Below, in pieces: positions 1 through 64,000 of a stretch of 64,000 nt of DNA. Under the pieces are notes generated by a model. That model was not told the origin of the DNA and made no database searches. It saw only the letters and a list, made by a program, of their open reading frames with translations. Made by a program: the position numbers and the translations under genes. Source of the DNA: Mycteria americana (Eukaryota > Chordata > Aves > Ciconiiformes > Ciconiidae); assembly GCF_035582795.1 (NCBI RefSeq), contig NW_027445624.1, forward strand, positions 1,798,001-1,862,000, written 5' to 3'. Within the stretch, counting starts at the first letter, position 1. Every line of letters begins with the position of its first letter.

Positions 1-1
1 A

Positions 2-13082: not shown

Positions 13083-15036
13083 AAAGCTGTTACAATGTCT
13101 TAGGTCTACATGCTGAGTCCCACAGGATGAGCAAGACGCCTAAATGCAACATCCAGATGGATAGGTGATACCATCAACAATAAAAATAAATCACCATTGG
13201 AGACCAATGAGGAAAGCCAAAGTTCTGGATTGAGAACTCCCTGGGAAGAGCAAAAAGGAAAGGTTGGGTCCGTGGGTGACAAGTAGCCCTTGCTCTTGCA
13301 GTTAGTCTCTGGTTTGGGACAGCTTCCTGAGCAACATGTGCATCCTTGGAGGGTGATTCCCTGGACCCGCACCAGGCAGCAGCCAGGTTTCCCGGCAGGG
13401 CTTTCCATCCCCCCTTCCAGAAATGGCCATGTCTCTCCATTCAGCATTCATGGATCCCAAAGCACCAGTTTGGGAAAGGCTTCTAGGTGAGGGGAAGGCC
13501 TCCCTCAGGCACATCTGTCCTCCTTGAATCCCAGTCTTGTGCAAGGCTCGGGTGGGTGGAGCTCGTTTGGTGCCCACGTTTGTCTGACACATGGCTGGTT
13601 AGTGCCATTACCAAGCAGGGAGGGAGAGCTTTGGTCTCAGGACAAGTTCTGCCCAAGGCAGTTGCAGCTCACAGCTGTGGTGCCTCAAGTCACTGACCCA
13701 TGCCTGGGGTCTCTCATAAATAAAGCCCCATACACGGAAATCACCACAGTTAATGTGGGTGACGTGATGCCATGGTGCCAACATGGAAATTTCCAGCCCG
13801 CATACTACGTTCAGGAGAAGAAATACTGATCTTCCTCTGCATCGACTCTCACTACCCTGTCACATCTTTCCGCATGTACTCCTTCAAGGGCCCCTTCTCA
13901 ACTCTCTGCAGTCTGCCTGATGCTGCCTTCAGCCAAATCCTGAATTATGTTCCTACCTGTCCCTTCCTACGTATCTCGCTGAAGGTTTTCCTTCAGCGAA
14001 AGGAAAACTATTTCAGTATTTATTACTGAAAAGTATTTCAGTATTTATTCCTGAAATCTTCTCAGTTTGGCTGCACTCCTGGAGTCTCTCAACTCAGCCC
14101 CACGAGACTTGAAGCATTAGGGAGAATTATGCAGGGAGACTTGGCTTGGCATGGCATTTTGCATGTTAATGAGCCCTCTGGTGCCAAGCTCCGGAACTGC
14201 AGGTACTGCAAGAATGAACCGGCCTCTACAGAACTGAAAAGCTTCCTGAGGTGCATCCAAGGGTGGGGAGTGAAGGAGAGGAAGAGAGGAAGGTCAGCTC
14301 ATGGGGCATGTTGAGCACTGTCTAGCCACCCCACAGCAGAGGGCATTCCCCATCTCCCAGGCTGAGGCATGCACACAGGATGGGAACCTCTCCTTTGTGC
14401 AGGGGCCTTCAGCCACATTCCCAGGGCAGACCTATTCCTCCTCCACCCACAGACGTCAACGGCTTTCCATTGCTGGGCTCACACAAGGTTGGAAGGATTT
14501 GCTACAGCCCTCAACCATCGCCTTGCTTCTTGACGAGTTCCCTACACCCTCTCTCGCATCCGTACGCACTGCCAATCACTGCCTGATCACTACCCGAGAA
14601 GCTAAGAAGCTCTCCAGGCTTTCCCTCTCATCCTCAGGGGATGACCACGTTTCTGCAGTCACCATTCGTGCATCGTAAAAACACCAGTTGAGGAAGTGCA
14701 TCTTGGTGAGGGGAGGACCTCGCCGAGGCACCTCTGTGCTCTTTGAGGTGTAAGCGCTTGTGCAAGGCTGCAGGAGGAGTTGCTTTGGTGGCCAGCTTTG
14801 TATTGCAGATGGATGGTGTGCAGAGGGCAGGGAATGAGAGAGGACTGCTACCAGAAATGCCATGGAGGGGAGGTCCGGTGCTCAGGGAAAGAAGGATGAA
14901 GGGTGGACACTCTGGACACTCCGGGTTCTGGTGTTTCTCTTCCCAAGTCCCCACTGTGGGTGACGAAGCTCTGCTTCCCCAGAAATGGCCAAGCATCTGC
15001 CTGCCGATGGGAAGCACTCCATAGCTCACTTTGGGA

Positions 15037-15110
15037 GTCTCTGTGGCGCAATTGGTTAGCGCGTTCGGCTGTTAACCGAAAGGCTGGTGGTTCGAGCCCA
15101 CCCAGGGACG
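15037..15110 (+). tRNA. tRNA-Asn (anticodon GTT), left-arm copy
   Basis: 74 bases fold as a standard cloverleaf: acceptor GTCTCTG with CAGGGAC, D stem GCGC with GCGC, anticodon GTT at 15,071-15,073, T loop in GGTTCGAGCCC. Both internal Pol III promoter boxes are intact (A box TGGCGCAATTGG, B box GGTTCGAGCCC). The expected T-run terminator is missing close by: the first TTTT is about 160 bases downstream, so termination may be inefficient. Discriminator and CCA are not encoded beyond the usual end. A mirror copy lies at 61,853-61,926. Confidence 0.97.
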
Positions 15111-15254
15111 CCTTCCCCTTTCCCTGCCCGTGACAGGGGGCTTGCAACTACAGGACCTTGCAGCTCCCTTACAACCCAAACCCTTCTATGGCTCCAGCAA
15201 AAGAGGAGCCCATTCACTCCCCTCTCCAAAGGCAGAGCATTCAAAACAAACTCA

Positions 15255-15433
15255 TAGCAATTCCTTACTCCCTTTTGCTTGCGCACGCACCTTTGCTTCA
15301 CTTATTAAACTGCCTTTCTCTTCACCCACGACTCTTTCTCACTTTGCCCTTCCAATGCTCTCCCCCCTCCAGCTCAGGGGGGCTGAGCCAGCAGCTGCGT
15401 GGGGGCTGAGCTGCCAGCTGGGGACAACCCACC
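15255..15433 (+). mobile_element. LTR fragment, left arm
   Basis: Its reverse complement resembles the terminal part of the LTR at 39,549-40,581: shared landmarks are the CCCCAGC block, AGCTGCTGGCTCA (AGCTGCTAGCTCA in the other), a GGGGGAGAG run, and AAGTGAAGCAAAG. It lies 145 bases beyond the tRNA gene. No matching second LTR or coding part was seen. Confidence 0.6.
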
Positions 15434-16059
15434 CTGGGATTTGCCTTATTTCTACTCTCACTAACAACAGCAGCAGTAACATGCTCTAAAATAAGGTCTT
15501 CCTCTTCTTCATGATGCTAAACTCTATTTCTTTCATGTTACTCCTTTCCTTCATTCTTCCTTGACAAGACACTTAGAATTTCTCAGTATTATAGTCTGCC
15601 ATGAAGTTGTTAGAACAATACTTTTTCTCTCCTTTCTAACTGTTGTCATCTAATGGCAACACCTCTCAGACAGTATTGTCCCTACATCATTTCTTTCATT
15701 CCCATTTCCAGTCTCTGTGTCGGTGTGAGGAGTTGTTTATCGTGATTATCACATCCCTGAGCAGCTCGTCCTTGGTTGCCAGTACCGGATCCAGGTGAGC
15801 ACCCAGGGCCTTTGTTGGCCCACTGGGCAGCTGTATGAAGAAGGTGTCCCGCGGTGCTGCAGACTGTTTGCACCTTGTTTTGCCTGGTCCGTGAATGCCA
15901 GGGCAATTACAGTCCCCCACAGGAACTGGCTCATTGCCCTGCAGACTTCCTTGGGTTGCTGCCAGAAGACTTTTCCTGCTTCCTCACCCTCACTGCATGG
16001 TTCATAACTGCCAACATGATGTCACCCTTACTGGCCTCTCTAATCCTCAGTGACAGAAG

Positions 16060-16640
16060 CTAAGCATCCTGCAAGACCTCCAGACATCTGAGCTGCCCCT
16101 TCACACTGGGGACATCCCCCATCCTCACCTTCCCGGCCACCCTCTTCTGCAGAGCCTCTATCCCTCCACTGCAGCACCCCAAGTGAGCAAGCTGTCCCAC
16201 CACATCTAATTTCATCCCAAGCCATCACAGTGCTGGGAGGCTCCAGCTCCTCCTGTCTGTTCCCCAGCTCCTCCCGCCTGTGCACGTTTGCGCTGCAGCA
16301 TCTGAGCTGAGGCACCGGGGCTGAGCACAGACTCGTTACAGGTAAACATGGTACCAGGGCCCCAGGGCCCCCACTCTGCTTCACATGCTGGAGTGCTTGG
16401 CAGATGTTAATGTAACAAGGAAATGAGGTGCCCACAGACTGCCCCGCAGTCTCCAAGGCCAGAGAAACGAGGCTGCGCAATGACATCTTGTCCAGAGAAA
16501 TGTTTGGTGACTGCAGAAAATCTGCAGGGCTGTGGGGCTTGCAAGACAAACTGCAGGAAGGACAGGGTGCTGCAGAGACAGTCTTTGCGGATGGGCTGCC
16601 TTTGGTCCATCCACACTGTGGACATTGTTATCACCTTCCC
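16060..16640. repeat. Unclassified interspersed repeat, copy 1 (left arm)
   Basis: The stretch with TGAGCTGCCCCTTCACAC, GCAGAGCCTCTATCCCTCCA and CTCCAGCTCCTCC is repeated at 31.15-31.42 kb (TGAGCTGCCCCTTCACAC, GCAGAGCCTATATCCCTCCA). In the reverse direction it has a Glu-rich frame with EELENRQEELE-like text, perhaps a coiled coil of an ORF1-like protein. I do not recognise the family. Mirrored at about 60,319-60,900. Confidence 0.55.
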
Positions 16641-16659
16641 TCTCCATATCATGAGGCAG

Positions 16660-17340
16660 CGAGGGCAGAGGAGAGAAGCAAGAGAGAGGTTAAAGGCAGT
16701 GTGGAGTGGGAGGATGCTGAGAGCTCCCTGGAAGAGAAATCTTCACGGCCCTTAACACAGTAAGTCTCTGGCTGCAGGGCAATGCACTTGAGTACTCTGG
16801 AGGGGTCTCCTAGAGCTGGCACATCCCAGAGCAGGCAGGATCTGGCAGGATGGCTCTCCGGGTTTCTTTCATGTGGAGAAGGACACGCTCCAGCCCAGGG
16901 CTGTCCTTCAGAGCAGGGTCCCTGCACCCCAGGAGGCTGTGTGCCAGGCAGGGACGCTGCTGCCTGCCAGGGTCAGCACACAGCCTGCCCAGCGAGCTCC
17001 CCACAGTGCTGTGGGGAGAAGCTGTTGGTTAAAGGAGTGACCCCCGGCAGGGCAGGGTCCTTCTGCTGTCGTGAGGGTTCTGCGTGTGTCAGGGCTGCTC
17101 ACAGCTCCACATCACCCCCAGCATCTTTCTGAGGGTCCTTTTGAAGAAGTACACCAAGGCAGCATTGACTTGAATGGGAAGGTGTTTGTGCTTTGAGGTT
17201 TCTCATCTTGGTTGTCTGCTTGGGCAGCGGGAGATGGGAATTTATTTCTCTGTGCTGGAGAAGGCACTGAGACCGCAGAAGATTTTAGGGGTTTTCCTTG
17301 AGAAGTCTCTCAAAACTTCTCCCTGTCTTCCGTCTTACAC
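16660..17340 (+). repeat. Receptor-unit upstream module, OR2 copy
   Basis: Shares with the OR4, OR5 and OR7 units the block AAAGGCAGTGTGGAGTGGGA, an AAATCTTCACGGCCCTTAACA line, a GTAAGT donor-like motif at 16,760-16,765, the GATGGCTCTCCGGGTTTC block, and the GGTCCTTCTGCT block. It ends at the splice acceptor (AG at 17,341-17,342) before OR2. Inference: promoter plus noncoding 5' exon. Confidence 0.65.
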
Positions 17341-17379
17341 AGGCCCCAATGCCTTCAGGCAGCAAAAGTCCAACAGCAA

Positions 17380-18289
17380 ATGTCCAACAGCAGCTCCATC
17401 ACCCAGTTCCTCCTCCTGGCGTGAGCAGACATGCAGGAGCTGCAGCTCTTGCACCTCTGGCTCTTCCCGGGCATCTACCTGGCTGCCCTCCTGGGCAACG
17501 GCCTCAGCATCACCGCCGTAGCCTGTGACCGCTGCCTCCACATGCCCATGTACTTCTTCCACTTTAACCTCTCCTTCCTCGGTCTGGGCTCCGTCTCCAC
17601 CACTGTCCCCATATCCATGGCCAATTCCCTCTGGCACACCAGGGACATTTCCTATGCAGGATGCACTGCCCAAGTGTTTCTGTTTGCCTTCTTGATGTCA
17701 GCAGAGTTTTCTCTTCTCACCATCATGGCCTATGACCGCTACATGCCATCTCCAACCCCCTGCGCTATGGGACCCTCCCGGACAGCCGAGCTCGCAGCAA
17801 AGCGGCAGCAGCTGCCTGGGACAGTGATTTCCCCTATGCCATGCTGCACACTACCAATACATTTTCACTACCGCTCTGCCAAGGCAATGCTGTGGACCAG
17901 TTCTTTTGTGAAATCCCTCAGATCCTCAAGCTCTCCTGCTCACGCTCCTTACTCAGGGAATTTGGGGTTCTTATATTTAGTGCTATTGGAGCACTCGGGT
18001 GTTGTATTTTCGTTGTGCTGTCCTGTGTGGAGATCTTCATGGCTGCGCTGAGGTTGCCCTGTGAGCAGGGACGGCACAAAGCCTTTTCCACGTGGCTCCC
18101 TCACCTGACCGTGGTCTCCCTGTTTGCCAGCTCTGCCATGTTTGCCTACCTGAAGCCTCCCTCCATCTCCTCCCCATCCCTGAATCTGGTGGTAGCACTT
18201 CTGTATTCGGTGGTGCCTCCCACAGTGAACGCCCTCATTTACAGCACGGGGACCAAGGAGCTCAAGGATCCCTGAGGAAAGTGATTTAG
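17380..18289 (+). pseudogene. Olfactory receptor pseudogene, OR14-like (OR2)
   Basis: Clear OR14-like sequence from MSNSSSITQF to the TM7 region, broken three times: TGA at codon 15 (17,422-17,424), a one-base deletion right after the DRY motif (about 17,743), and a one-base deletion near the C-terminus (about 18,270). The frameshift at DRY is shared with its mirror OR7; the TGA and the C-terminal deletion are private to this arm. NPLIYS is degraded to NALIYS. Splice acceptor and AATAAA (18,526-18,531) remain. So the gene died before the inverted duplication and has decayed further since. Confidence 0.95.
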
Positions 18290-19390
18290 TGGCCATTTTT
18301 CAGTACTTATGGACTTCCCTTGTCTCTGCACAAATGACTCCTATGGTATCCCATTGCAGGTGCCTGCTTTGTTCATTAGTCCTTGTCATTATCATTATCT
18401 GTATAACATAAATATTGGGATTCACTTCACTGCTAAGGATGAATGAACCTTCTCTGTGTCTCCTGACTGTCAGGAAAAATCTTTCGAACGCTGCATCACA
18501 GCTCTGTCTCCCACAGCATCTTTGTAATAAAATGGCGTCTCCTCCGTGCACTGCCTGAAGACTGGGCTCTTCATCCAAAGCTGGTGACGAGAACAGGCAC
18601 GAGCAAATGCTCCCCAAAGGAGCCTGTTGCTCCATGGATTCAGGATCAAAGAGCTCCTTGTCCTGTTGGTGCCTGTCAGAGACTGAGTGTTGCATTTAGG
18701 ACTTACCCGTTGGTGTCTAGTGAAAGTGGAGACGGTGAGCAGTCACCGAGTCGCTGAGGTACATACCCAGGGCTGTTCCACATGTGACACAGAGATGATG
18801 TCCTTAAGGAGGGCAGTCTGGAGCTGCCTGGAAACCCCAGGCATCTCCATGGATGGCACGGGCCTGTGGCGGGCAGTGACTGGAGCACCATAAAGAGAGA
18901 GATTGGGCAAGGCGGAGTCCCTCAAAGGAAAAGTGCTAAACCCAGGCGTCTACAGGGAAACAAGGACTCTGCTGTCCCAGAGGAGGAAATGGGGCGCCAG
19001 CAGGCGCATGGAAGGGAGGCAGGAGAGTCATTCATGTCACCCCCAGTCACGACTGAACGTTTCCTCTCCTTGGAAATGCACCATAGTCCCTTCAAGCACC
19101 TTCCACCTCCACAGACCCTCAGGCAGGGGGCTTAGCAGAAGTGATCCCCGCCCAGCTCCCGAGGGCCAGCAGGGAGCACAAGGAGAGGGCCAGGAAGGAC
19201 CAGAACGATCGCGGAGAGGTGAGATGGGATCTGATGTGGGCTAGAGTTTGCGCCAGAGAAAATGCCCATGTTCGGCTAATTCAAAACTGTTTCTAGACCA
19301 TGGATACCCTGAAGCATGCTTACAGTGCAGAGCCAGGAGTTCTTGCTCCACCAGGCCTGGGACGTGGCGTTTCCCACTCCCCATCCCTTT
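18290..19390. other. OR2 3' flank (shared receptor-unit flank)
   Basis: Homologous to the OR7 flank (57.58-58.66 kb) as mirror and, more distantly, to the OR5 flank (41.68-42.76 kb). Landmarks: AATAAA, GATTCAGGATCAAAGAGCTC, GATGATGTCCTTAAGGAGGG, CACCATAGTCCCTTCAAGCA. No coding potential seen. Confidence 0.65.
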
Positions 19391-20117
19391 GTGCCATCGT
19401 CCCTCACGAAGAGTGACGTTGAGATGGAGGCTGGCACTGTGTCAGGGCTTACGCTGTGGAAGCATGACCCAGCAGACCTGTGAATTTGCTGCTGTCCCTT
19501 AGTCAGTCCGTGTGCCTAGCACATGTCCTTGGGACAACCTCCCCCACCTTGTGTGCTGGCTCTAACCCCCAAAAGTCACCCCCCATCCTGGCCCTTTGTA
19601 TTTTTCGTCCCTTGTGCAGACCACGGCAGGGGGATGTTTCCCCAGCCCTGAATGCATCCTGCACCATGTGGTGCCTGCACGGTTGGGCTGGGGGGGCCAC
19701 ATGTGGGGCAGCAAGGCTGTGCTGTTGCAGGGATTAGCATGTGAACATGAGCCACACTGCCAGGACATCCCCAAATTACCTTCAAACGCCAGCCAGGCAG
19801 GGCTGTCACCCCAGTCACCGCAATGACTCTGGGATCCCAAGAGGCACCATGAGTTGGAAGCATAGGGTGGGCACCACAACCCCAGCTCTGCCAGCAGACC
19901 TTCTGAAGCCAGAGCTGCTCCCAATGGTTGGGAGAGGACTCACTGCTGCTCACAGGGTTGGGGGTGGCTTGGGGGCTGCAGCCACCAGCACCGCCTGCCA
20001 GGAGCCCCAAGACACAGCGGCGAGCATCGGTTCCCGGCGCCGCAGCTCCCAGTGCCTCCCCTCCTCTGTGACCATCCTCGCTCCGGAGCACCAGTGGGTG
20101 CGAAGGGGAGCTGCTTG

Positions 20118-20785
20118 TTGTAGTAGTCACTTCAGCATTAGTAGCAAGGCTTGCTGAAGTCTTAGGCCACAAGAACTTTCACCCAGATCCACCGACCGTG
20201 CACTGAACTTTGACTTGGCCCCCAAAACCCATGCAAACCAGAAAGATGAGGAGGCTTCAACCTTAGCAGAAGCTGCGATCTTAGAGAGAAGAGAAGAATC
20301 GGCCCGCCAAGAGACAATGAAAGGGCCCAATGAAGAACGGGAAGACCCCAGACCCAAATACTACTATTGGTCCGAACAGTCTCCTGAGGGGAGGGGAATT
20401 TAGATACCTTAGATATACCTTAGATATACCTTACAGGGTATAATTACCCAGGGATTTCTTTGTTCTGGCTCCCTCTCCGGAGGCACCCAGCTCGAGCTGT
20501 TTTCACTGCTGTACCAATAAATTCACCTGGCGCGCGTCGTCTCGGAGGCTCTGCTTCGGGAAACCTAGGGTCGAGCCAGAGGGGAGAGAAAGCACCCGAG
20601 AGTGAGTGTATGTGAGCGAGGAGTTGAAAAGGGGCACCCATCAGCTCAGTGGAGCTGCCGCTGCGATGGGACTTTGGTCCTAGCAGTTAAAGTCTCGGGC
20701 GGTGTGTGTGCGACTCCCTGAATGGTGTGTGAATGCTCGGGCAGCGGCTTCTCCTTTAACACTGCTGGAGCTCTTCTCTGCTGAC
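20118..20785 (+). mobile_element. Probable LTR, plus strand (left arm)
   Basis: Starts TGTAGTAGTC; has a purine tract GAGGGGAGGGGAA at about 20.39 kb, an imperfect tandem of TTAGATATACC, a TATA-like GGGTATAATTACCC, AATAAA at 20,516-20,521, and a GC-rich U5-like stretch to about 20,785. The order TATA, short gap, AATAAA, U5 suits a retroviral LTR. Ends are not fixed and the family is not recognised. A 62-codon open frame inside it (20,215-20,403) is most likely chance. Confidence 0.45.
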
Positions 20786-20789
20786 CCGC

Positions 20790-21150
20790 TGCCATGGCCC
20801 CTTCTTGTGTTCAAAGTCACTGTTGCGTAGGAGTCTGAGGAGTGGCTGGAGGGGGGGAACCCTCCCGTTGAGTCAGGAGGTTCAGACAGGACCCCCTTGC
20901 TTTCTAAACTCCTTCTCAGAGAGGAGTCGAGGTGCGGCTAAGTCCAGTCTTAGTCTCACACTTGGTCAACGGTTTATTTTCTAAGGACGGTACATGTAGC
21001 CACCCATCAGAGTCAACGATTGCCTGTCAGAGCCCTCTCAGGGCTTCCACTGAAACAGCTTCGCAAAGTTGATTAAGGTGGCAGCGCTAAAGTAATTTGA
21101 CAGCGTTCTAAGTCCAGTCAATTATTCCACACCCCTGTCTCCGCCCTGGT
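20790..21150 (-). mobile_element. LTR-like block, minus strand, left arm only
   Basis: On the minus strand there is an AAAATAAACCGTT polyadenylation-like motif (about 20.98 kb) after a GC-balanced stretch; CTAAGTCCAGTC occurs twice (20,939 and 21,107). It resembles the 3' half of another LTR but I cannot name it. Missing from the right arm through the 697 bp deletion. Confidence 0.35.
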
Positions 21151-21784
21151 GCCAGCTCACAACCACTACCACAATCCCTCTGCAGTCTATGCCTCTGCTT
21201 GGAGCTGGCCACCGTGGTGTGCCTGCATGGCCCTGAGGATCCCAGAGGGGCTGTGCTTGGAGAGCAGGTTGTGACAGTCCTCGGTCTGAGTAGGGCTGAG
21301 GATCTGGTTGGGGATCATGACGGAAAGGAAGGGACAAGAGATTGCAAGGACAAGAAGCAGGAAGGGAAATTTCACAGGAGGTTAAGGAAAGACAAAGTTA
21401 CAGAGATATATTTGTATGATCATGAGAGTGGATCAGCACTGGTTCAGGGGCCCCAAGATTTTCAAAACTCACCTGGAGAAAGCATTGACCAATCAGATGT
21501 AACTCTAAAGTTCTCCATACTCAGAGCATATCATGGTACTGGAGACCTCCAGAGGTCCCTTCCAACTCAAATCCTCAAGGAGGAAGGAGCTGGACACAGC
21601 AGTCAGGGTAGGGGATACTGCTGTGTGTTGAGGCATTGCTGGCATTTGTAACCCCTGGTGCACCTTTTCCTCAGAGTGACACGGCGAATGAGGTCATCCT
21701 CAAAAGGAGGCCTCTGCTCCACGGGCACCGGGAGTGCAACCAGTGTGGGGAAAGGCCAGAAAAGTTCTCAGAAACACTGCCAGG

Positions 21785-22130
21785 CATTCCACCATCACAG
21801 AATCCCAAAATAGTTGGGGTTGGAAAGGCTCTCTGGAGATAGCTAGTCCTCCCTTGAATCCTAAGCCATAAGCTCTCAGTTGGCTCCTCACCCATCCCCA
21901 GGCCGATGTCCAGCCACTTCAGCTGCTCTCACATAAAATGCAACTCCCCCTCCTCGTCTTCCCATACAGGCCTTCCAAAAGAGCTGTATCCCTCTGTGCA
22001 ACACTCCAGTCGTGGGAGCCATCCCACCATGTCCCCATGATGCCAGTAAGATGGTAGCCCTGCAACTGCCCACAGACCTCTAACTCATCGTGTTGATTCC
22101 CCATCCTGTGTGCATTCCTCTACAGGCACT
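21785..22130 (-). mobile_element. CR1 fragment with internal deletion (endonuclease start joined to 3' end), left arm
   Basis: The reverse strand shows the start of the CR1 ORF2 endonuclease (MGNQHDELE, then a GTWWDGSHDW block where active copies have ETWW) with the 3' tail (reverse ACAGAATCCCAAAATAG) immediately next to it. Most of ORF2 is missing. Confidence 0.8.
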
Positions 22131-22573
22131 TTAGAGAGGCACCCCAGCTTCTTGAGATCCTGGAGAGGATTTGGCAGGTTTCTCCATCAAGGGGCCTTGT
22201 AGACACGTTTTGCTTAAGAGGAAGGCTTCAAAGAGCACTTTACAAAACATGATTTTTTATTTTCATGGCTACATTTTATTACTTTTCACTTTAGAGGAGA
22301 GCTGATAGCAGCATTCTGCAATTGATATTGATCCACTGTGCCTCCTAAGGAGGATGGGACAGGCAGGAGAAGCAGTGCCTTGAGGTCTGAGACGATGGTC
22401 AACCTTGCTCCTTCCCTCCCCAAGCCTCAGGCTCAGGTTCTTGCCTCTGGAGAAGCACGGTGACTCCAAAAAGTGGTTTCCAAAGGCAATGTTCAAGCAG
22501 AGAAGAAAAGAACCAAATAATCAAGCCTGGCCTGAGACAGACTTGGAATCGCCTGTGGAAAGAGAAGGGCAGC

Positions 22574-50595: not shown

Positions 50596-50641
50596 TCTCT
50601 CAGCACTCTTGGGCGCAGCCCCTGCAGTACCATGCTCTCTT

Positions 50642-50755: not shown

Positions 50756-50899
50756 CACCCAGATGAAGGGGGGCTTTTTTGCTTCTCTCCCATCCCGCTG
50801 GGGAAGGGGGGAAGGGAGCAAGGGAACAAATGGGTGCGTGCTTAGTGGCTGGCCATGCTCAACCCACCAAACCCCTGAAATGTCACCAAGTGGCTTTGC

Positions 50900-54151: not shown

Positions 54152-55087
54152 ATGTCCAACAACAGCTCCATCACCCAGTTCCTCCTCCTGGCGTTTGCAG
54201 ACATGCGGGAGCTGCAGCTCTTGCACTTCTGGCTCTTCCTGGGCATCTACCTGGCTGCCCTCCTGGGCAACGGCCTCATCATCACCGCCATAGCCTGTGA
54301 CCACCATCTCCACACCCCCATGTACTTCTTCCTCCTCAACCTCTCCCTCCTCGACTTGGGCTCCATCTCCACCACTGTCCCCAAATCCATGGCCAATTCC
54401 CTCTGGGACACCAGGACCATTTCCTATGGAGGATGTGCTGCCCAGGTCTTTTGGTTTCTCTTCTTTGTTTCTTCAGAGTATTATCTTCTGACCGTCATGG
54501 CCTATGACCGCTATGTAGCCATCTGCAAACCCCTGCACTATGTGACCGTCATGGACAGCCGAGCTTGCATCAAAATGGCAGCAGCTGCCTGGGGCAGTGG
54601 TTTCCTCAATGCGGTGCTGCACGTTGGAAACACATTTTCCATTCCATTCTGCCAAGGCAATGCTGTGGAGCAGTTCTTCTGTGAAATCCCCCAGCTCCTC
54701 AAGCTCTCCTGCTCGCACTCCTACGTCAGGAAAGCTGGGTTTACTGTGGTCAGTCTTTGCGTAGCTTGTGGGTGTTTTCTGTTCCTTGTCCTGTCCTATG
54801 TGCAGATATTCACGGTTGTGCTGAGGATCCCCTCTGAGCAGGGACGGCACAAGGCCTTTTCCACGTGCCTCCCTCACGTGGCCGTAGTCTCCCTGTTTGC
54901 CAGCTCTGCCATGTTTGCCTACCTGAAGTCCCACTCAAGCTCATCCCCAGCTCTGAATCTTGTGGTGGCCGTTCTGTATGCAGTGGTGCCTCCAGCAGTG
55001 AACCCCCTCATCTACAGCATGAGGACTCAGGAGCTCAAAGAGGCACTAAAGAGACTGATCCGCTGTCTGCTGTTGCAGCAGGAATAA
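54152..55087 (+). CDS. Olfactory receptor, OR14-like (OR6), open frame, motifs intact
   Basis: 311 residues from the ATG opening MSNNSS; acceptor ...CTTGGACAG ends about 24 bases upstream. LLGNGLI, PMYFFL, MAYDRYVAIC, KAFSTCLPHV and NPLIYSM are all present. It differs from the mirror OR3 by one Ser codon, one His/Tyr and the normal Pro in TM7. AATAAA at 55,381-55,386 lies about 290 bases after the stop. It should be a working odorant receptor. The near identity to OR3 against the lower identity among other paralogs fits a recent inverted duplication or continuing gene conversion. Confidence 0.95.
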   Translation: MSNNSSITQFLLLAFADMRELQLLHFWLFLGIYLAALLGNGLIITAIACDHHLHTPMYFFLLNLSLLDLGSISTTVPKSMANSLWDTRTISYGGCAAQVFWFLFFVSSEYYLLTVMAYDRYVAICKPLHYVTVMDSRACIKMAAAAWGSGFLNAVLHVGNTFSIPFCQGNAVEQFFCEIPQLLKLSCSHSYVRKAGFTVVSLCVACGCFLFLVLSYVQIFTVVLRIPSEQGRHKAFSTCLPHVAVVSLFASSAMFAYLKSHSSSSPALNLVVAVLYAVVPPAVNPLIYSMRTQELKEALKRLIRCLLLQQE

Positions 55088-55530
55088 GCTGCCCTTCTCT
55101 TTCCACAGGCGATTCCAAGTTTGTCTCAGGCCAGGCTTGATTATTTGGTTCTTTTCTTCTCTGCTTGAACATTGCCTTTGGAAAGCAGTTTTTGCAGTCA
55201 CCGTGCTTCTCCAGAGGCAAGAACCTGAGCCTGAGGCTTGGGGAGGGAAGGAGCAAGGTTGACCATCGTCTCAGTCCTCAAGGCACTGCTTCTCCTGCCT
55301 GTCCCATCCTCCTTAGGAGGCACAGTGGATCAATATCAATTGCAGAATGCTGCTATCAGCTCTCCTCTAAAGTGAAAAGTAATAAAATGTACCCATGAAA
55401 ATAAAAAATCATGTTTTGTAAAGTGCTCTTTGAAGCCTTCCTCTTAAGCAAAACGTGCCTACAAGGCCCCTTGATGGAGAAACCTGCCAAACCCTCTCCA
55501 GGATCTCAAGAAGCTGGGGTGCCTCTCTAA

Positions 55531-55876
55531 AGTGCCTGTAGAGGAATGCACACAGGATGGGGAATCAACACGATGAGTTAGAGGTCTGTGGGCAGTTGCA
55601 GGGCTACCATCTTACTGGCATCATGGGGACATGGTGGGATGGCTCCCACGACTGGAGTGTTGCACAGAGGGATACAGCTCTTTTGGAAGGCCTGTATGGG
55701 AAGACGAGGAGGGGGAGTTGCATTTTATGTGAGAGCAGCTGAAGTGGCTGGACATCGGCCTGGGGATGGGTGAGGAGCCAACTGAGAGCTTATGGCTTAG
55801 GATTCAAGGGAGGACTAGCTATCTCCAGAGAGCCTTTCCAACCCCAACTATTTTGTGATTCTGTGATGGTGGAATG
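55531..55876 (+). mobile_element. CR1 fragment with internal deletion (right arm)
   Basis: Mirror of 21,785-22,130: start of the endonuclease joined to the CR1 tail (TTTTGTGATTCTGTGATGG at 55.85 kb). Confidence 0.8.
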
Positions 55877-56174
55877 CCTGGCAGTGTTTCTGAGAACTTT
55901 TCTGGCCTTTCCCCACACTGGTTGCACTCCCGGTGCCCGTGGAGCAGAGGCCTCCTTTTGAGGATGACCTCATTCGCCGTGTCACTCTGAGGAAAAGGTG
56001 CACCAGGGGTTACAAATGCCAGCAATGCCTCAACACACAGCAGTATCCCCTACCCTGACTGCTGTGTCCAGCTCCTTCCTCCTTGAGGATCTGAGTTGGA
56101 AGGGACCTCTGGAGGTCTCCAGTACCATGATATGCTCTGAGCATGGAGAACTTTAGAGTTACATCTGATTGGTC

Positions 56175-56846
56175 AGAGAAGAGAAGAGAAGAGCTCCAGC
56201 AGTGTTAAAGGAGAAGCCGCTGCCCGAGCATTCACACACCATTCAGGGAGTCGCACACACACCGCCCGAGACTTTAACTGCTAGGACCAAAGTCCCTTCG
56301 CAGCGGCAGCTCCACTGAGCTGATGGGTGCCCCTTTTCAACTCCTCGCTCACATACACTCGCTCTCGGGTGCTTTCTCTCCCCTCTGGCTCGACCCTAGG
56401 TTTCCCGAAGCAGAGCCTCCGAGACGACGCGCGCCAGGTGAATTTATTGGTACAGCAGTGAAAACAGCTCGAGCTGGGTGCCTCCGGAGAGGGAGCCAGA
56501 ACAAAGAAATCCCTGGGTAATTATACCCTGTAAGGTATATCTGAGGTATATCTAAGGTATCTAAATTCCCCTCCCCTCAGGAGACTGTTCGGACCAATAG
56601 TAGTATTTGGGTCTGGGGTCTTCCCGTTCTTCATTGGGCCCTTTCATTGTCTCTTGGCGGGCCGATTCTTCTCTTCTCTCTAAGATCGCAGCTTCTGCTA
56701 AGGTTGAAGCCTCCTCATCTTTCTGGTTTGCATGGGTTTTGGGGGCCAAGTCAAAGTTCAGTGCACGGTCGGTGGATCTGGGTGAAAGTTCTTGTGGCCT
56801 AAGACTTCAGCAAGCCTTGCTACTAATGCTGAAGTGACTACTACAA
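56175..56846 (-). mobile_element. Probable LTR (right arm), flanked by deletion
   Basis: Mirror of 20,118-20,785. Its outer flank is a short (AGAGA)n run at 56.18 kb that marks the 697 bp deletion junction. Confidence 0.45.
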
Positions 56847-57404
56847 CAAGCAGCTCCCCTTCGCACCCAGGGGTGCTCCTGAGCGAGGATGGTCACAGAG
56901 GAGGGGAGGCACTGGGAGCTGTGGTGCCAGGAACCGACACTTGCCGCTGTGTCTTGGGGCTCCTGGCAGGCGGTGCTGGTGGCTGCAGCCCCCAAGCCAC
57001 CCCCAACCCTGTGAGCAGCAGTGAGTCCTCTCCCAACCATTGGGAGCAGCTCTGGCTTCAGAAGGTCTGCTGGCAGAGCTGGGGTTGTGGTGCCCACCCT
57101 ATGCTTCCAACTCATGGTGCCTCTTGGGATCCCAGAGTCATTGCGGTGACTGGGGTGACAGCCCTGCCTGGCTGGCGTTTGAAGGTAATTTGGGGATGTC
57201 CTGGCAGTGTGGCTCATGTTCACATGCTAATCCCTGCACCAGCACAGCCTTGCTGCCCCACATGTGGCCCCCCCAGCCCAACCCTGCAGGCACCACATGG
57301 TGCAGGATGCATTCAGGGCTGGGGAAACATCCCCCTGCCGTGGTCTGCACAAGGGACGAAAAATACAAAGGGCCAGGATGGGGGGTGACTTTTGGGGGTT
57401 AGAG

Positions 57405-58660
57405 CCAGCACACAAGGTGGGGGAGGCTGTCCCAAGGACATGTGCTAGGCACACGGACTGACTAAGGGACAGCAGCAAATTCACAGGTCTGCTGGGTCAT
57501 GCTTCCACAGTGTAAGCCCTGACACAGTGCCAGCCTCCATCTCAACGTCACTCTTCGTGAGGGACGATGGCACAAAGGGATGGGGAGTGGGAAACGCCAC
57601 GTCCCAGGCCTGGTGGAGCAAGAACTCCTGGCTCTGCACTGTAAGCATGCTTCAGGGTATCCATGGTCTAGAAACAGTTTTGAATTAGCTGAACATGGGC
57701 ATTTTCTCTGGTGCAAACTCTAGCCCACATCAGATCCCATCTCACCTCTCCGCGATCGTTCTGGTCCTTCCTGGCCCTCTCCTTGTGCTCCCTGCTGGCC
57801 CTCGGGAGCTGGGCGGGGATCACTGCTGCTAAGCCCCCTGCCTAATGTTCTGGGGAGGTGGAAGGTGCTTGAAGGGACTATGGTGCATTTCCAAGGAGAG
57901 GAAACGTTCAGTCGTGACTGGGGGTGACATGAATGCCTCTCCTGCCTCCCTTCCATGCGCCTGCTGGCGCCCCATTTCCTCCTCTGGGACAGCAGAGTCC
58001 TTGTTTCCCTGTAGACGCCTGGGTTTAGCACTTTTCCTTTGAGGGACTCCACCTTGCCCAATCTCTCTCTTTATGGTGCTCCAGTCACTGCCCACCACAA
58101 GCCCGTGCCATCCATGGAGATGCCTGGGGTTTCCAGGCAGCTCCAGACTGCCCTCCTTAAGGACATCATCTGTGTGTCACATGTGGAACAGCCCTGGGTA
58201 TGTACCTCAGCGACTCGGTGACTGCTCACCGTCTCCACTTTCACTAGACACCAACGGGTAAGTCCTAAATGCAACACTCAGTCTCTGACAGGCACCAACA
58301 GGACAAGGAGCTCTTTGATCCTGAATCCATGGAGCAACAGGCTCCTTTGGGGAGCATTTGCTCGTGCCTGTTCTCGTCACCAGCTTTGGATGAAGAGCCC
58401 AGTCTTCAGGCAGTGCACGGGGGAGACGCCATTTTATTACAAAGATGCTGTGGGAGACAGAGCTGTGATGCAGCGTTCGAAAGATTTTTCCTGACAGTCA
58501 GGAGACACAGAGAAGGTTCATTCATCCTTAGCAGTGAAGTGAATCCCAATATTTATGTTATACAGATAATGATAATGACAATGACTAATGAACAAAGCAG
58601 GCACCTGCAATGGGATACCATAGGAGTCATTTGTGCAGAGAGAAGGGAAGTCCACAAGTA
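57405..58660. other. OR7 3' flank (right arm)
   Basis: Mirror of the OR2 flank and homolog of the OR5 flank in the spacer; candidate AATAAA in reverse (TTTATTACAAAG) near 58.43 kb. Confidence 0.6.
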
Positions 58661-58674
58661 CTGAAAAATGTCCA

Positions 58675-59585
58675 CTAAATCACTTTCCTCAGGGCATCCT
58701 TGAGGTCCTTGGTCCCCGTGCTGTAGATGAGGGCGTTCACTGTGGGAGGCACCACCGAGTACAGAAGTGCTACCACCAGATTCAGGGATGGGGAGGAGAT
58801 GGAGGGAGGCTTCAGGTAGGCAAACATGGCAGAGCTGGCAAACAGGGAGACCACGGTCAGGTGAGGGAGCCACGTGGAAAAGGCTTTGTGCCGTCCCTGC
58901 TCACAGGGCAACCTCAGCGCAGCCATGAAGATCTCCACACAGGACAGCACAACGAAAATACAACACCCGAGTGCTCCAATAGCACTAAATATAAGAACCC
59001 CAAATTCCCTGAGTAAGGAGCGTGAGCAGGAGAGCTTGAGGATCTGAGGGATTTCACAAAAGAACTGGTCCACAGCATTGCCTTGGCAGAGCGGTAGTGA
59101 AAATGTATTGGTAGTGTGCAGCATGGCATAGGGGAAATCACTGTCCCAGGCAGCTGCTGCCGCTTTGCTGCGAGCTCGGCTGTCCGGGAGGGTCCCATAG
59201 CGCAGGGGGTTGGAGATGGCATGTAGCGGTCATAGGCCATGATGGTGAGAAGAGAAAACTCTGCTGACATCAAGAAGGCAAACAGAAACACTTGGGCAGT
59301 GCATCCTGCATAGGAAATGTCCCTGGTGTCCCAGAGGGAATTGGCCATGGATACGGGAACAGTGGTGGAGACGGAGCCCAGACCGAGGAAGGAGAGGTTA
59401 AAGTGGAAGAAGTACATGGGGGTGTGGAGGCAGCGGTCACAGGCTACGGCGGTGATGCTGAGGCCGTTGCCCAGGAGGGCAGCCAGGTAGATGCCCGGGA
59501 AGAGCCAGAAGTGCACGAGCTGCAGCTCCTGCAGGTCTGCTAACGCCAGGAGGAGGAACCGGGTGATGGAGCTGCTGTTGGTCAT
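58675..59585 (-). pseudogene. Olfactory receptor pseudogene, OR14-like (OR7)
   Basis: Opens MTNSSSITRF and reads through TM1-TM3 to DRY, where a one-base deletion (about 59,222) shifts the frame; the second half is open in another frame to a TAG. This break is shared with OR2. It lacks the OR2-specific TGA and C-terminal deletion, so it is the less decayed twin. Acceptor and GTAAGT module are kept. NPLIYS is NALIYS. Confidence 0.95.
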
Positions 59586-59635
59586 TTGCTGTTGGACTTT
59601 TGCTGCCTGAAGGCATTGGGGCCTGTGTAAGAGGG

Positions 59636-60300
59636 AAGACAGGGAGAAGTTTTGAGAGACTTCTCAAGGAAAACCCCTAAAATCTTCTGCGGTCTCAGTG
59701 CCTTCTCCAGCAGAGAGAAATAAATTCCCATCTCCCGCTGCCCAAGCAGACAACCAAGATGAGAAACCTCAAAGCACAAACACCTTCCCATTCAAGTCAA
59801 TGCTGCCTTGGTGTACTTCTTCAAAAGGACCCTCAGAAAGATGCTGGGGGTGATGTGGAGCTGTGAGCAGCCCTGACACACGCAGCACCCTCACGACAGC
59901 AGAAGGACCCTGCCCTGCCGGGGGTCACTCCTTTAACCAACAGCTTCTCCCCACAGCACTGTGGGGAGCTCGCTGGGCAGGCTGAGTGCTGACCCTGGCA
60001 GGCAGCAGAGTCCCTGCCTGGCACACAGCCTCCTGGGGTGCAGGGACCCTGCTCTGAAGGACAGCCCTGGGCTGGAGCGTGTCCTTCTCCACATGAAAGG
60101 AACCCGGAGAGCCATCCTGCCAGATCCTGCCTGCTCTGGGATGTGCCAGCTCTAGGAGACCCCTCCAGAGTACTCAAGTGCATTGCCCTGCAGCCAGAGA
60201 CTTACTGTGTTAAGGGCCGTGAAGATTTCTCTTCCAGGGAGCTCTCAGCATCCTCCACACTGCCTTTAACCTCTCTCTTACTTCTCTCCTCTCCCCTCGC
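59636..60300 (-). repeat. Receptor-unit upstream module, OR7 copy
   Basis: Mirror of 16,660-17,340; GTAAGT kept (60,200-60,205 as ACTTAC). An 8 bp deletion removes one GAGTGGGA unit relative to the left arm. Confidence 0.65.
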
Positions 60301-61230
60301 TGCCTCACGATATGGAGAGGGAAGGTGATAACAATGTCCACAGTGTGGATGGACCAAAGGCTGCCCATCCGCAAAGACTGTCTCTGCAGCACCCTGTCCT
60401 TCCTGCAGTTTGTCTTGCAAGCCCCACAGCCCTGCAGAGTTTCTGCAGTCACCAAACATTTCTCTGGACAAGATGTCATTGCGCAGCCTCGTTTCTCTGG
60501 CCTTGGAGACTGCGGGGCAGTCTGTGGGCACCTCATTTCCTTGTTACATTAACATCTGCCAAGCACTCCAGCATGTGAAGCAGAGTGGGGGCCCTGGGGC
60601 CCTGGTACCATGTTTACCTGTAACGAGTCTGTGCTCAGCCCCGGTGCCTCAGCTCAGATGCTGCAGCGCAAACGTGCACAGGCGGGAGGAGCTGGGGAAC
60701 AGACAGGAGGAGCTGGAGCATCCCAGCACTGTGATGGTTTTGGATTAAATTAGATGTGGTGGGACAGCTTGCTCACTTGGGGTGCTGCAGTGGAGGGATA
60801 GAGGCTCTGCAGAAGAGAGTGGCCGGGAAGGTGAGGATGGGGGATGTCCCCAGTGTGAAGGGCCAGCTCAGATGTCTGGAGGTCTTGCAGGATGCTTAGC
60901 TTCTGTCACTGAGGATTAGAGAGGCCAGTAAGGGTGACATCGTGTTGGCAGTTATGAACCATGCAGTGAGGGTGAGGAAGCAGGAGAAGTCTTCTGGCAG
61001 CAGCCCAAGGAAGTCTGCAGGGCAATGAGCCAGTTCCTGTGGGGGACTGTAATTGCCCTGGCATTCACGGACCAGGCAAAACAAGGTGCAAACAGTCTGC
61101 AGCACCGCGGGACACCTTCTTCATACAGCTGCCCAGTGGGCCAACAAAGGCCCTGGGTGCTCACCTGGATCCGGTACTGGCAACCAAGGACGAGCTGCTC
61201 AGGGATGTGATAATCACGATAAACAACTCC

Positions 61231-61248
61231 TCACACACACACACACAG
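61231..61248. repeat. (CA)n microsatellite, expanded in right arm
   Basis: Right arm has an uninterrupted CA run of about eight units; the left arm at 15,717-15,730 has an interrupted, 4-base-shorter version (GTGTCGGTGTG). Confidence 0.85.
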
Positions 61249-61529
61249 AGACTGGAAATGGGAATGAAAGAAATGATGTAGGGACAATACTGTCTGAGAG
61301 GTGTTGCCATTAGATGACAACAGTTAGAAAGGAGAGAAAAAGTATTGTTCTAACAACTTCATGGCAGACTATAATACTGAGAAATTATAAGTGTCTTGTC
61401 AAGGAAGAATGAAGGAAAGGAGTAACATGAAAGAAATAGAGTTTAGCATCATGAAGAAGAGGAAGACCTTATTTTAGAGCATGTTAGTGCTGCTGTTGTT
61501 AGTGAGAGTAGAAATAAGGCAAATCCCAG

Positions 61530-61708
61530 GGTGGGTTGTCCCCAGCTGGCAGCTCAGCCCCCACGCAGCTGCTGGCTCAGCCCCCCTGAGCTGGAGGGGG
61601 GAGAGCATTGGAAGGGCAAAGTGAGAAAGAGTCGTGGGTGAAGAGAAAGGCAGTTTAATAAGTGAAGCAAAGGTGCGTGCGCAAGCAAAAGGGAGTAAGG
61701 AATTGCTA
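61530..61708 (-). mobile_element. LTR fragment, right arm
   Basis: Mirror copy of the fragment at 15,255-15,433; the insertion predates the inverted duplication. Confidence 0.6.
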
Positions 61709-61852
61709 TGAGTTTGTTTTGAATGCTCTGCCTTTGGAGAGGGGAGTGAATGGGCTCCTCTTTTGCTGGAGCCATAGAAGGGTTTGGGTTGTAAGGGAGC
61801 TGCAAGGTCCTGTAGTTGCAAGCCCCCTGTCACGGGCAGGGAAAGGGGAAGG

Positions 61853-61926
61853 CGTCCCTGGGTGGGCTCGAACCACCAGCCTTTCGGTTAACAGCCGAAC
61901 GCGCTAACCAATTGCACCACAGAGAC
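61853..61926 (-). tRNA. tRNA-Asn (anticodon GTT), right-arm copy
   Basis: Mirror of the left-arm gene with one base change, C to T at position 11, which turns a C-G pair of the D stem into a T-G wobble. A and B boxes remain good matches (TGGTGCAATTGG, GGTTCGAGCCC), so it is probably still transcribable. Confidence 0.96.
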
Positions 61927-62912
61927 TCCCAAAGTGAGCTATGGAGTGCTTCCCATCGGCAGGCAGATGCTTGGCCATTTCTGGGGAAGCAGAGCTTCGT
62001 CACCCACAGTGGGGACTTGGGAAGAGAAACACCAGAACCCAGAGTGTCCACCCTTCATCCTTCTTTCCCTGAGCACCGGACCTCCCCTCCATGGCATTTC
62101 TGGTAGCAGTCCTCTCTCATTCCCTGCCCTCTGCACACCATCCATCTGCAATACAAAGCTGGCCACCAAAGCAACTCCTCCTGCAGCCTTGCACAAGCGC
62201 TTACACCTCAAAGAGCACAGACGTGCCTCGGCGAGGTCCTCCCCTCACCAAGATGCACTTCCTCAACTCGTGTTTTTAGGATGCACGAATGGTGACTGCA
62301 GAAACGTGGTCATCCCCTGAGGATGAGAGGGAAAGCCTTGAGTGCTTCTTAGCTTCTCAGGTAGTGATCAGGCAGTGATTGGCAGTGCGTACGGATGCGA
62401 GAGAGGGTGTAGGGAACTCGTCAAGAAGCAAGGCGATGGTTGAGGGCTGTAGCAAATCCTTCCAACCTTGTGTGAGCCCAGCAATGGAAAGCCGTTGCTG
62501 TCTGTGGGTGGAGGAGGAATAGGTCTGCCCTGGGAATGTGGCTGAAGGCCCCTGCACAAAGGAGAGGTTCCCATCCTGTGTGCATGCCTCAGCCTGGGAG
62601 ATGGGGAATGCCCTCTGCTGTGGGGTGGCTAGACAGTGCTCAACATGCCCCATGAGCTGACCTTCCTCTCTTCCTCTCCTTCACTCCCCACCCTTGGATG
62701 CACCTCAGGAAGCTTTTCACTCCTGTAGAGGCCGGTTCATTCTTGCAGTACCTGCAGTTCAGGAACTTGGCACCAGAGGGCTCATTAACATGCAAAATGC
62801 CATGCCAAGCCAAGTCTCCCTGCATAATTCTCCCGAATGTTTCAAGTCTCATGGGGTTGAGCTGAGAGACTCCAGGAGTGCAGCCAAACTGAGAAGATTT
62901 CAGGAATAAATA

Positions 62913-63373
62913 TCAGTACAACAGGATGTCTTCTTTCACCAGTTTTCTTCACTTTTCTGCTTACACAACAAGTGATATCAGCCTTCCCCAATTCCTATTC
63001 ATCTCCTGATGCGTCTCCTGATGAAGTCTGAACATGTAGGAAAAGTAAGATCCTTTCTGTACAACACTGTGTGGGCAAACTCTGTCCCCCCCACCTCCCA
63101 CACACCCTGCCATTTCTATCATCAGCCACCTGGGACTTGCATCATGCTCTCTCAAATCCAAGCTTCTCCCACCATAGCCTGCAGCTGAAGGTGCATTTGC
63201 ACCAGTTCCCACCTGCTGTAGTTGGAGAACCAGCTGCGCAGTCACAGAAGGATGGTTCTTACCTGCCAAGAAAGGAATAGTTTAATAAAAAATAAAAGAC
63301 ATTCCTCAGCTGCCTATGAACTCCAAGTTGCCTCCACTGAAGTCCACTTTCCACAGTGGGTAACCTCAGTGGG
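62913..63373. other. Right-arm-specific 461 bp segment
   Basis: In the left arm these 461 bases are replaced by 53 bases (13,989-14,041) that contain a near-tandem pair of the motif TATTTCAGTATTTATT. The segment holds no gene or repeat that I recognise. A deletion with local filler duplication on the left is the simpler reading, but polarity is not fixed because no third copy is in the window. Confidence 0.7.
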
Positions 63374-64000
63374 AAACCTTCAGCGAGATACGTAGGAAGG
63401 GACAGGTAGGAACATAATTCAGGATTTGGCTGAAGGCAGCATCAGGCAGACTGCAGAAAGTTGAGAAGGGGCCCTTGAAGGAGTACATGCGGAAAGATGT
63501 GACAGGGTAGTGAGAGTCGATGCAGAGGAAGATCAATATTTATTCTCCTGAACGTAGTATGCGGGCTGGAAATTTCCATGTTGGCACCATGGCATCACGT
63601 CACCCACATTAACTGTGGTGATTTCCGTGTATGGGGCTTTATTTATCAGAGACCCCAGGCATGGGTCAGTGACTTGAGGCACCACAGCTGTGAGCTGCAA
63701 CTGCCTTGGGCAGAACTTGTCCTGAGACCAAAGCTCTCCCTCCCTGCTTGGTAATGGCACTAACCAGCCATGTGTCAGACAAACGTGGGCACCAAACGAG
63801 CTCCACCCACCCGAGTCTTGCGCAAGACTTGGATTCAAGGAGGACAGATGTGCCTGAGGGAGGCCTTCCCCTCACCTAGAAGCCCTTCCGAAATTAGTGC
63901 TTTGGGATCCATGCATGCTGAATGGAGAGACATGGCCATTTCTGGAAGGGGGGATGGAAAGCCCTGCTGGGAAACCTGGCTGCTGCCTGGTGCGGGTCCA

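Follow-up and report, generated by a model that had tools for sequence, protein, structure and literature searches.

The window analysed here, a 64,000-nucleotide stretch of a 2.22 Mb contig (C221) of Mycteria americana, is largely occupied by one inverted repeat, called p2 below, that is built of olfactory receptor (OR) units and has a left arm (p2L), a spacer and a right arm (p2R).

1..13094, plus strand: block D, outside the palindrome, with a CR1 element and OR1
6948..7883, plus strand: OR1 of block D, an OR14-like receptor with an open frame
13095..33085 (C221:1811095-1831085), plus strand: left arm A (p2L), with a tRNA-Asn gene, broken OR2 and intact OR3
15037..15112, plus strand: tRNA-Asn(GTT) of the left arm
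17375..18332, plus strand: OR2, frameshift just past the DRY motif; partner of OR7
22574..23641, minus strand: OR3, open frame; partner of OR6
33086..45280, no strand: spacer S (12.2 kb), which holds OR4 and OR5; seven copies on C221 (five plus, two minus)
34792..35738, plus strand: OR4, broken, on the left side of the spacer
42778..43920, minus strand: OR5, open frame, on the right side of the spacer
45281..64000 and on to C221:1862268, minus strand: right arm A' (p2R), with intact OR6, broken OR7 and a tRNA-Asn gene
54023..55087, plus strand: OR6, open frame; partner of OR3
58630..59642, minus strand: OR7, sharing the frame break of its partner OR2
61851..61926, minus strand: tRNA-Asn(GTT) of the right arm, one base off the left copy

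Geometry of the palindrome

Comparing the window plus flanks with itself recovered the inverted arms and located both outer ends, and the inverted match is far beyond chance. The arms are about 20 kb long and 98.5% identical on alignment, around a spacer that holds two ORs. The sequence-only reading had put the arms at about 19.7 and at least 18.7 kb, the spacer at 12.2 kb and the identity by eye at roughly 97-99%; alignment of the arms agrees with these values and with its pairing of OR2 with OR7, OR3 with OR6 and one tRNA-Asn with the other. Its left edge at 13362 has to be given up, being merely the base that pairs with 64000, where the window ends: the arms in fact extend to about 13095 on the left and, 268 bases past 64000, to C221:1862268 on the right. 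Self-BLAST returned inverted matches at 21486-29697/56175-47958 (98.8%), 14042-20782/62912-56182 (98.4%), 13362-13991/64000-63371 (97.8%) and 30396-33801/47962-44555 (94.5%), the last of which takes in lower-identity sequence within the spacer edge. When the arms were aligned with MAFFT in its default mode and scored in 500-column bins, identity per bin was 0.93-1.00, one bin at a CR1 insertion having 40 aligned columns only. The spacer is taken as 12.2 kb because arm identity drops abruptly inward of about 33085 and 45268. Parts of block D recur, nearly unchanged, at C221:1750.4-1757.5, 1900.2-1908.0 and 1911.6-1915.1 kb.

All seven receptors match PF13853, namely OR1, OR3, OR5 and OR6 as well as the broken OR2, OR4 and OR7, and most of the 120 listed homologues of OR6 (of 7,994 matches) carry OR14-like names. 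Together these matches support the view that the palindrome is made of OR14-like receptors, which we take to be gamma-c receptors.

A seven-unit array on one contig

The palindrome does not stand alone, but belongs to an array of seven units of the form (D)-A-S-A'-(T). The seven spacer copies are 98-100% identical, and the arms are found as 12 full copies at 98-100% and one partial copy; all lie on C221, where the array spans about 0.4 Mb. Among the best 40 candidates scored, no spacer or arm copy outside C221 exceeded 84% identity. The sequence read comprised 214 kb, one 10 kb stretch and a set of 5 kb loci, with p5-p7 placed mostly by probes and the order of the array taken from the assembly. 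In the block map of the 214 kb, A-S-A' occurs three times together with A-S of p4, and the left arms of p1 and p3 are truncated; the right arm of p4, beyond this stretch, was seen by locus L003 and by the arm probe. The 214 kb are continuous (N = 0), the copies are more than 1% apart and differ in private deletions, insertions and truncations, and no allelic copy on a second contig appeared among the best 40 candidates scored. All of this speaks against the haplotypes of one locus having been misjoined or falsely duplicated, which we regard as very improbable even though repeats this alike pose difficulties for assembly and the array is known from an assembly.

Three large differences between the arms of p2 can be polarised against the other copies:

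20783..21485, no strand: 703 bases that p2L retains and p2R has lost
62913..63370, no strand: segment of the right arm, kept by p1R, p3R and p4L and deleted in the left arm of p2
29693..30395, minus strand: CR1 3'-end insertion with 12-base tandem repeats, also in the left arms of p4 and p6

The earlier contention that the arms differ by real insertions and deletions stands as far as their reality goes, but the first two segments are deletions and the CR1 piece is the only insertion of the three. The left arm is unbroken across 20783-21485 in comparison with p1R, p3R, p4L and the left arm of p6; a left-arm insertion or LTR at this place was rejected, since the other arms keep the segment, and the loss is a deletion private to the right arm, with a 5-base microhomology (TGACC). 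The loss of 62913-63370 is likewise private, to the left arm of p2. A hairpin-read artefact, which the sequence-only reading had already argued against, is disfavoured because some of the arm differences are markers that other copies share.

Across the 214 kb there are 22 OR units, 13 of them with an open reading frame of at least 300 aa, and seven copies of tRNA-Asn(GTT). Receptor classes were uniformly open (OR1 in 3/3 copies scored, OR3/6 in 5/5, OR5 in 4/4) or uniformly broken (OR2/7 in 5/5, OR4 in 4/4), and one further OR is open. The pN/pS ratios of the open classes are 0.41 for OR5, 0.71 for OR3/6 and 1.03 for OR1; those of the broken classes are 0.85 and 0.78. Selection on the ORs is thus weak, and any function of the extra copies is putative.

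Exchange among arms and reversal of spacers

The mosaic test used five of the 12 full arms (five of seven aligned arm sequences, the partial p3L and left arm of p6 being dropped) and skipped sites within three columns of a gap as well as sites with more than two letters. These five arms are near-equidistant, with pairwise differences of 1.12-1.66%, and fit no single tree. At 120 informative sites, variants are shared by all ten possible pairings (4 to 16 each), and the pairing that shares fewest is p2L with p2R (4/120), which are 1.49% apart versus 1.12-1.66% for the nine other pairs. Adjacent sites were incompatible in 29 of 119 cases versus 72.6 expected by permutation, a value as low being reached in 0 of 5000 permutations, so that the shared variants form clustered tracts. 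With CpG/TpG/CpA sites removed, incompatibilities numbered 13 of 46 versus 27.8 expected (as low in 1 of 5000), and p2L and p2R shared 1/47. Because all ten pairings share clustered variants and the own arms of p2 share fewest, exchange is array-wide and not private to the arms of one palindrome. In p2, the one palindrome of seven for which the sequence read includes two complete arms, the arms are no more homogenised with each other than with other copies, and private arm-to-arm conversion as a rule was rejected.

Near-equal distances (1.1-1.7%) are also what a recent burst of segmental duplication would leave behind, its young copies radiating as a star through rapid amplification with no ongoing gene conversion, and block duplication does happen here, as near-identical pairs at the spacer edge attest (p5L/p6L, 0.1%; p4R/p7R, 0.0%). 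Pure branching cannot, however, yield all ten pairings in clustered tracts, the clustering persists once CpG-prone sites are set aside, a single branching order does not fit the five arms tested, and a deletion present on both arms of p5 (Delta775, below) is not easily explained. We therefore consider such a burst an unlikely source of the pattern and favour array-wide exchange.

Two regions bear on the orientation of the spacers:

47451..48226, no strand: Delta775, absence of this segment, CR1 insertion site included, from both p5 arms, p6R and p7L
45293..47110, no strand: possible crossover zone, in which the right-type-edge arms of p5 and p6 turn left-type (45445 L, 46790 R, 47110 L)

In the two reversed spacers, those of p5 and p6, a right-type edge is joined to structural markers otherwise found only at left-type edges. 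This association holds for 2/2 reversed versus 0/4 scorable unreversed right-type edges in a 14-locus comparison in which p1L (truncated) and p3R (where a separate deletion, 47783-50471, covers the CR1 site) were not fully scorable for the CR1 and Delta775 markers; past 47450, the Delta775 loci no longer align homologously and the high distances there are meaningless. Although the cases are few, they suggest that crossovers between arms produced the reversed spacers. The single-base switch in the possible crossover zone is not specific to the reversed palindromes, because left-type tracts (47110-47225) also occur in p3R and p7R, which are right-type and unreversed; short conversion is an alternative for this switch, and its value as proof of a spacer flip is weakened accordingly. 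After a simple inversion, the right arms of p5 and p6 should be free of the markers, yet both carry Delta775, so that a further step is needed. The presence of Delta775 on both arms of p5 points the opposite way from the arms of p2, namely to own-arm homogenisation.

Chromosomal setting, origin and known systems

The GC content is 0.50-0.54, the CpG observed/expected ratio is 0.17-0.29, and 49 of 356 singletons are CpG>TpG changes, values of the kind expected of germline-methylated DNA. Judging indirectly from base composition, we infer that the array probably lies in methylated, GC-rich heterochromatin of a small chromosome. HINT1-related amplicons are known from the avian W. In this assembly, 20 copies of such a HINTW-type amplicon lie on contig C35 and the Z-type HINT1 on C32, and the HINT1 search of the contigs gave no HINT1-like match on C221; W linkage is therefore unsupported, and the array is probably not on the W. 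An unplaced piece of the W, whose palindromes intrachromosomal conversion would maintain because the W lacks a partner, had its attractions: the bird is evidently female, since the Z-type HINT1 and the HINTW-type amplicon are both present, and the duck W is described in PMC7787181 as having 38 palindromes of 15-346 kb. Against this, C35 is absent from the palindrome-probe matches listed (best 40 candidates scored) and the two arms of p2 share the fewest variants, which leaves a W-linked ampliconic array improbable. The sex-chromosome analogy drawn in the sequence-only reading likewise lacks support, in that the arms of p2 are not closest relatives and their identity is no higher than that between palindromes.

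The arm boundary falls within an OR-upstream paralogous unit, and divergence between the two sides is 3.6% immediately outside the boundary but 16.3% immediately inside it. In the OR tree, OR4 and OR5 are not sisters, OR5 standing beside OR2/OR7 at 71%; on this question the support values are modest (71% and 48%), and on that footing the view that OR4 and OR5 represent an older core of this palindrome is not favoured. We suspect that the palindrome began as an inverted duplication between oppositely oriented OR units (OR4 on plus, OR5 on minus), with their upstream sequences providing the homology, for example through break-induced copying or ectopic recombination. Segmental duplication or unequal exchange may then have multiplied the palindrome as a whole. 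Ectopic exchange among all copies, direct and inverted, through conversion as well as crossing-over, would hold arms, spacers and ORs at about 98-99% and would have turned the spacer round at least once. The functional output would be a small set of OR14-like receptor genes, in three open classes of several copies each.

Taken together, we read the locus as a concertedly evolving OR palindrome array whose probable location is a methylated, GC-rich micro- or dot chromosome and not the W (probability about 0.7). A bolder extension, to which we give somewhat less than even odds, is that such an autosomal dot-chromosome array behaves as a single recombining pool in which direct and inverted exchange among the seven palindromes, with spacer flips through crossovers between arms, keeps whole OR classes open or broken. 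If this is correct, palindrome-based copy correction might be a general engine of lineage-specific bird OR14 expansions and not a peculiarity of sex chromosomes.

Block duplication of palindromes and array-wide exchange are both readable at base level here, in what is probably a non-sex-chromosome case of dynamics (conversion, spacer inversion) mostly studied on the Y and W. Judging by titles and abstract openings, none of the papers listed in our literature searches dealt with palindromic OR arrays in birds. Features of known systems meet in this array: two long inverted arms around a spacer, as in sex-chromosome palindromes; multi-copy ORs on one small contig, as in dot-chromosome OR amplicons; and, for five of the 12 full arms, the failure of any single tree, as in concerted multigene arrays. 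One close OR counterpart is chicken OR29G, which according to PMC9974502 has 386 intact copies, located in pericentromeric heterochromatin on chr29; the paper gives a GC content of 51.4% for the heterochromatin of newly assembled dot chromosomes. Both are bird ORs amplified in many copies, at similar GC and here with strong CpG depletion. In the stork array, however, what is repeated, in seven units only, is a palindrome that carries four OR classes and a tRNA-Asn gene, and the text of PMC9974502 gave no match for 'palindrom'. With human Y P6 (PMC3723533) and the duck W (PMC7787181, which also cites other work for a sparrow W palindrome), the array shares long inverted arms, a spacer, gene conversion and, apparently, occasional inversion by crossover between arms. 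Unlike those sex-chromosome palindromes, its arms are 98.5% and not >99.9% identical and are not privately homogenised, its seven palindromes exchange as one array, and sex linkage is unsupported by the HINT1 search. Bird OR14-like receptors cluster by species, and 81% of chicken and 91% of zebra finch ORs lay on unplaced sequence; PMC2758906 leaves separate expansions and concerted evolution as two explanations. The present array resembles these gamma-c expansions in its lineage-specific growth of similar ORs, but differs in that the recombining unit is visible at base level and is palindromic.

A palindrome repeated seven times along one contig

Self-comparison of the window gave four long inverted matches that resolve into two arms flanking a 12.2 kb spacer, and end-to-end alignment of the arms (identity 0.93-1.00 per 500 columns, falling sharply inward of ~33085 on the left and ~45268 on the right) agrees, bearing out the measurements of the sequence-only reading. 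That reading had the palindrome at 13362..64000; the palindrome stands but the start does not, since 13362 merely pairs with the window's final base. With flanking sequence included, the arms reach from ~13095 in the window to C221:1862268 on the source contig, so that the palindrome measures ~51.2 kb; it is genuine and bigger than first reported. Six of the seven units that domain scans identify as olfactory receptors (OR1-OR7) lie in mirror order, the spacer pair OR4/OR5 being distant paralogues only, as do two tRNA genes:

Mirror-paired tRNA genes
15037-15112, left, tRNA-Asn(GTT), partner of 61851-61926
61851-61926, right, tRNA-Asn(GTT), partner of 15037-15112

A CR1 retrotransposon occupies window positions 1-3740; its endonuclease/RT frame is open over 995 aa, and upstream of this stands the tail of another frame, bearing a GDSL-type lipase domain. 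An inverted pair of 106 bases at 99% identity (3738-3843 and 12213-12318), in surroundings that look like far more diverged CR1-like sequence, is possibly a short conversion tract.

The genome (1.35 Gb, 279 contigs) was searched with probes, the best 40 candidates being scored per search; the window maps to 1,798,001-1,862,000 of C221 (2,221,088 bases). Among those candidates, a spacer probe found seven full-length matches, every one on C221 and nothing above 84% over 1 kb elsewhere:

Full-length spacers on C221
1766, 1835, 1874, 1953 and 2145 kb, plus strand
2018 and 2080 kb, minus strand

A 2 kb probe from the right spacer edge gave 14 matches on C221 at 91-100% in seven minus/plus pairs (one spanning 1.85 kb only), and an arm probe gave 12 full matches (98-100%) besides a partial one, each of them on C221; its top-scoring match outside that contig is 76% over ~340 bases (best 40 candidates in each case). 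Because the left arms of palindromes p1 and p3 are truncated, these counts are consistent with seven palindromes (p1-p7, the window's own being p2) and their 14 arms. In a continuous stretch of 214 kb (C221:1748001-1962000, no N) mapped with four blocks, arm-spacer-arm occurs three times, then arm-spacer at the end, with D or T blocks in between; the right arm of p4 was detected via locus L003 and the arm probe, and p5-p7 were covered in part. The 214 kb hold 22 OR units, 13 with an open frame of at least 300 aa, and seven tRNA-Asn(GTT) copies with at most two mismatches, each predicted as a tRNA. This tRNA gene has been amplified together with the palindrome, its two window copies being joined by five at other places.

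Exchange among arms and the two reversed spacers

Five of the full arms were compared, and any two of them are 1.12-1.66% apart. Their 476 two-letter sites comprise 356 singletons and 120 that two arms have in common. All 10 possible pairings occur among the shared sites, 4-16 times each, and the two arms of p2 share the fewest (4/120; binomial probability 0.006 if sites were independent, a figure that, as sites fall in tracts, we take as no more than a sign that sharing is not in excess). Conflicts between neighbouring informative sites number 29 of 119, against 72.6 expected with the order shuffled (0 of 5000 shuffles as low). When CpG, TpG and CpA sites are removed, 47 sites remain, with 13 conflicts in 46 against 27.8 expected (1 of 5000 as low) and a single site shared by the own-arm pair. 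Shared variants are thus clustered in tracts, as recombination or conversion would leave them. One branching tree for the five arms does not account for the site pattern, and private correction between p2's own arms does not either. Exchange within a palindrome does occur, since both arms of p5 have an identical 775-base deletion.

Left and right spacer edges are 13-17% apart, which allowed all 14 loci to be typed; farther out, a CR1 insertion and the 775-base deletion, which removes the CR1 site, served as markers. The insertion in the window's left arm, 610 bases long, is a 3' fragment of the CR1 family to which the element at window 1-3740 belongs (97%).

Markers beside spacer edges
Left-type (7): CR1 in p2 and p4; deletion in p5, p6 and p7; neither in p3; p1 truncated
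Right-type, plus-oriented (5): no marker in p1, p2, p4 and p7; another deletion across the CR1 site in p3
Right-type, reversed palindromes (2): 775-base deletion in p5; CR1 in p6

A likely explanation for the reversed palindromes is that a crossover between arms turned the spacer, after which the flipped unit would have been copied. Copying after the flip is suggested by the closeness of the p5 and p6 spacers, whose left-type edges are 0.1% apart (their OR 0.0%) and right-type edges 0.9% (their OR 0.1%). A simple flip predicts an unmarked right arm, but those of p5 and p6 both carry the 775-base deletion. In p5R and p6R, the arms at the right-type edges, single-base variants switch to left-type in the interval 45293-47110; the unreversed right-type-edge arms of p3 and p7 also have left-type tracts at 47110-47225, that of p7 being over by 47456, which resemble the products of conversion and are not flip-specific. 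Deletion and tracts together argue against a simple flip.

As to origin, the 98.5% arms terminate within sequence upstream of OR4/OR5 that is common to several OR units, the divergence between the two sides rising from 3.6% immediately outside the boundary to 16.3% immediately within it. In a seven-gene tree OR4 and OR5 are not sisters, OR5 joining OR2/OR7 at 71% support (next node 48%). From anatomy only, we infer as the simplest course that two oppositely oriented OR units provided homology through which one flank would have been copied, inverted, to the opposite side.

Receptor classes and related sequences

Among copies in the 214 kb, OR1 (3/3), OR3/6 (5/5) and OR5 (4/4) are open, as is an additional OR at C221:1918.5 kb, and OR2/7 (5/5) and OR4 (4/4) are broken, OR2 and OR7 at the identical place directly after the DRY motif. 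Pooled pN/pS, from few sites, is 0.41 for OR5, 0.71 for OR3/6 and 1.03 for OR1, with 0.85 and 0.78 in the two broken classes, which hints at constraint on OR5 alone. The array, we conclude, supplies three types of receptor, each in several near-identical copies; any value of the surplus copies is conjecture. Among 120 matches listed, the homologue of highest identity to OR6 (96%) is from the stork Ciconia maguari.

Nine contigs carry, 6-24 kb from an end, segments 78-83% like the palindrome spacer and edge:

Spacer-like end segments
Left ends: C206, C118, C220, C221
Right ends: C231, C238, C255, C264, C268

Eight such copies (L023-L030, 4.1 kb each) are only 0.1-1.2% apart, and the family looks like a putative subtelomeric duplication, OR-related and kept alike by exchange from one chromosome end to another. 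Sequences distantly related to part of the arm (~74-76%) are repeated on C230, C218, C222, C41, C27 and C250/C48, on several contigs in both orientations; among the best 40 candidates their scores are nearly equal per contig, suggesting further OR arrays, each homogenised by itself.

Chromosomal setting and known systems

The sequence-only reading had likened the palindrome to those of sex-chromosome ampliconic genes; the private arm homogenisation of that type is absent in p2, the sole palindrome testable in full. A search with human HINT1 placed a Z-type gene on C32. It also located 20 HINT1-like exon copies, 72% to human and 19 on the same strand, at C35:2123347-2407035 (2.12-2.41 Mb), and found no HINT1-like match on C221. 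Since the chicken W carries multi-copy HINT1W (PMC9974502), we read C35 as the whole W or a portion of it and regard the bird as female; the amplicon probably marks the W contig of a female stork.

Our literature search, covering titles and abstract openings, found no description of a palindrome and OR array combined in this form. The array joins two known kinds of structure, ampliconic palindromes and concertedly evolving OR arrays. GC is 0.50-0.54 and CpG observed/expected 0.17-0.29 in all 22 bins, and 49 of the 356 singletons are CpG>TpG. We infer that the array may lie in germline-methylated, GC-rich heterochromatin, its GC and CpG depletion fitting a setting similar to that of chicken dot chromosomes, in whose heterochromatin an OR gene with 386 intact copies has been described (PMC9974502).
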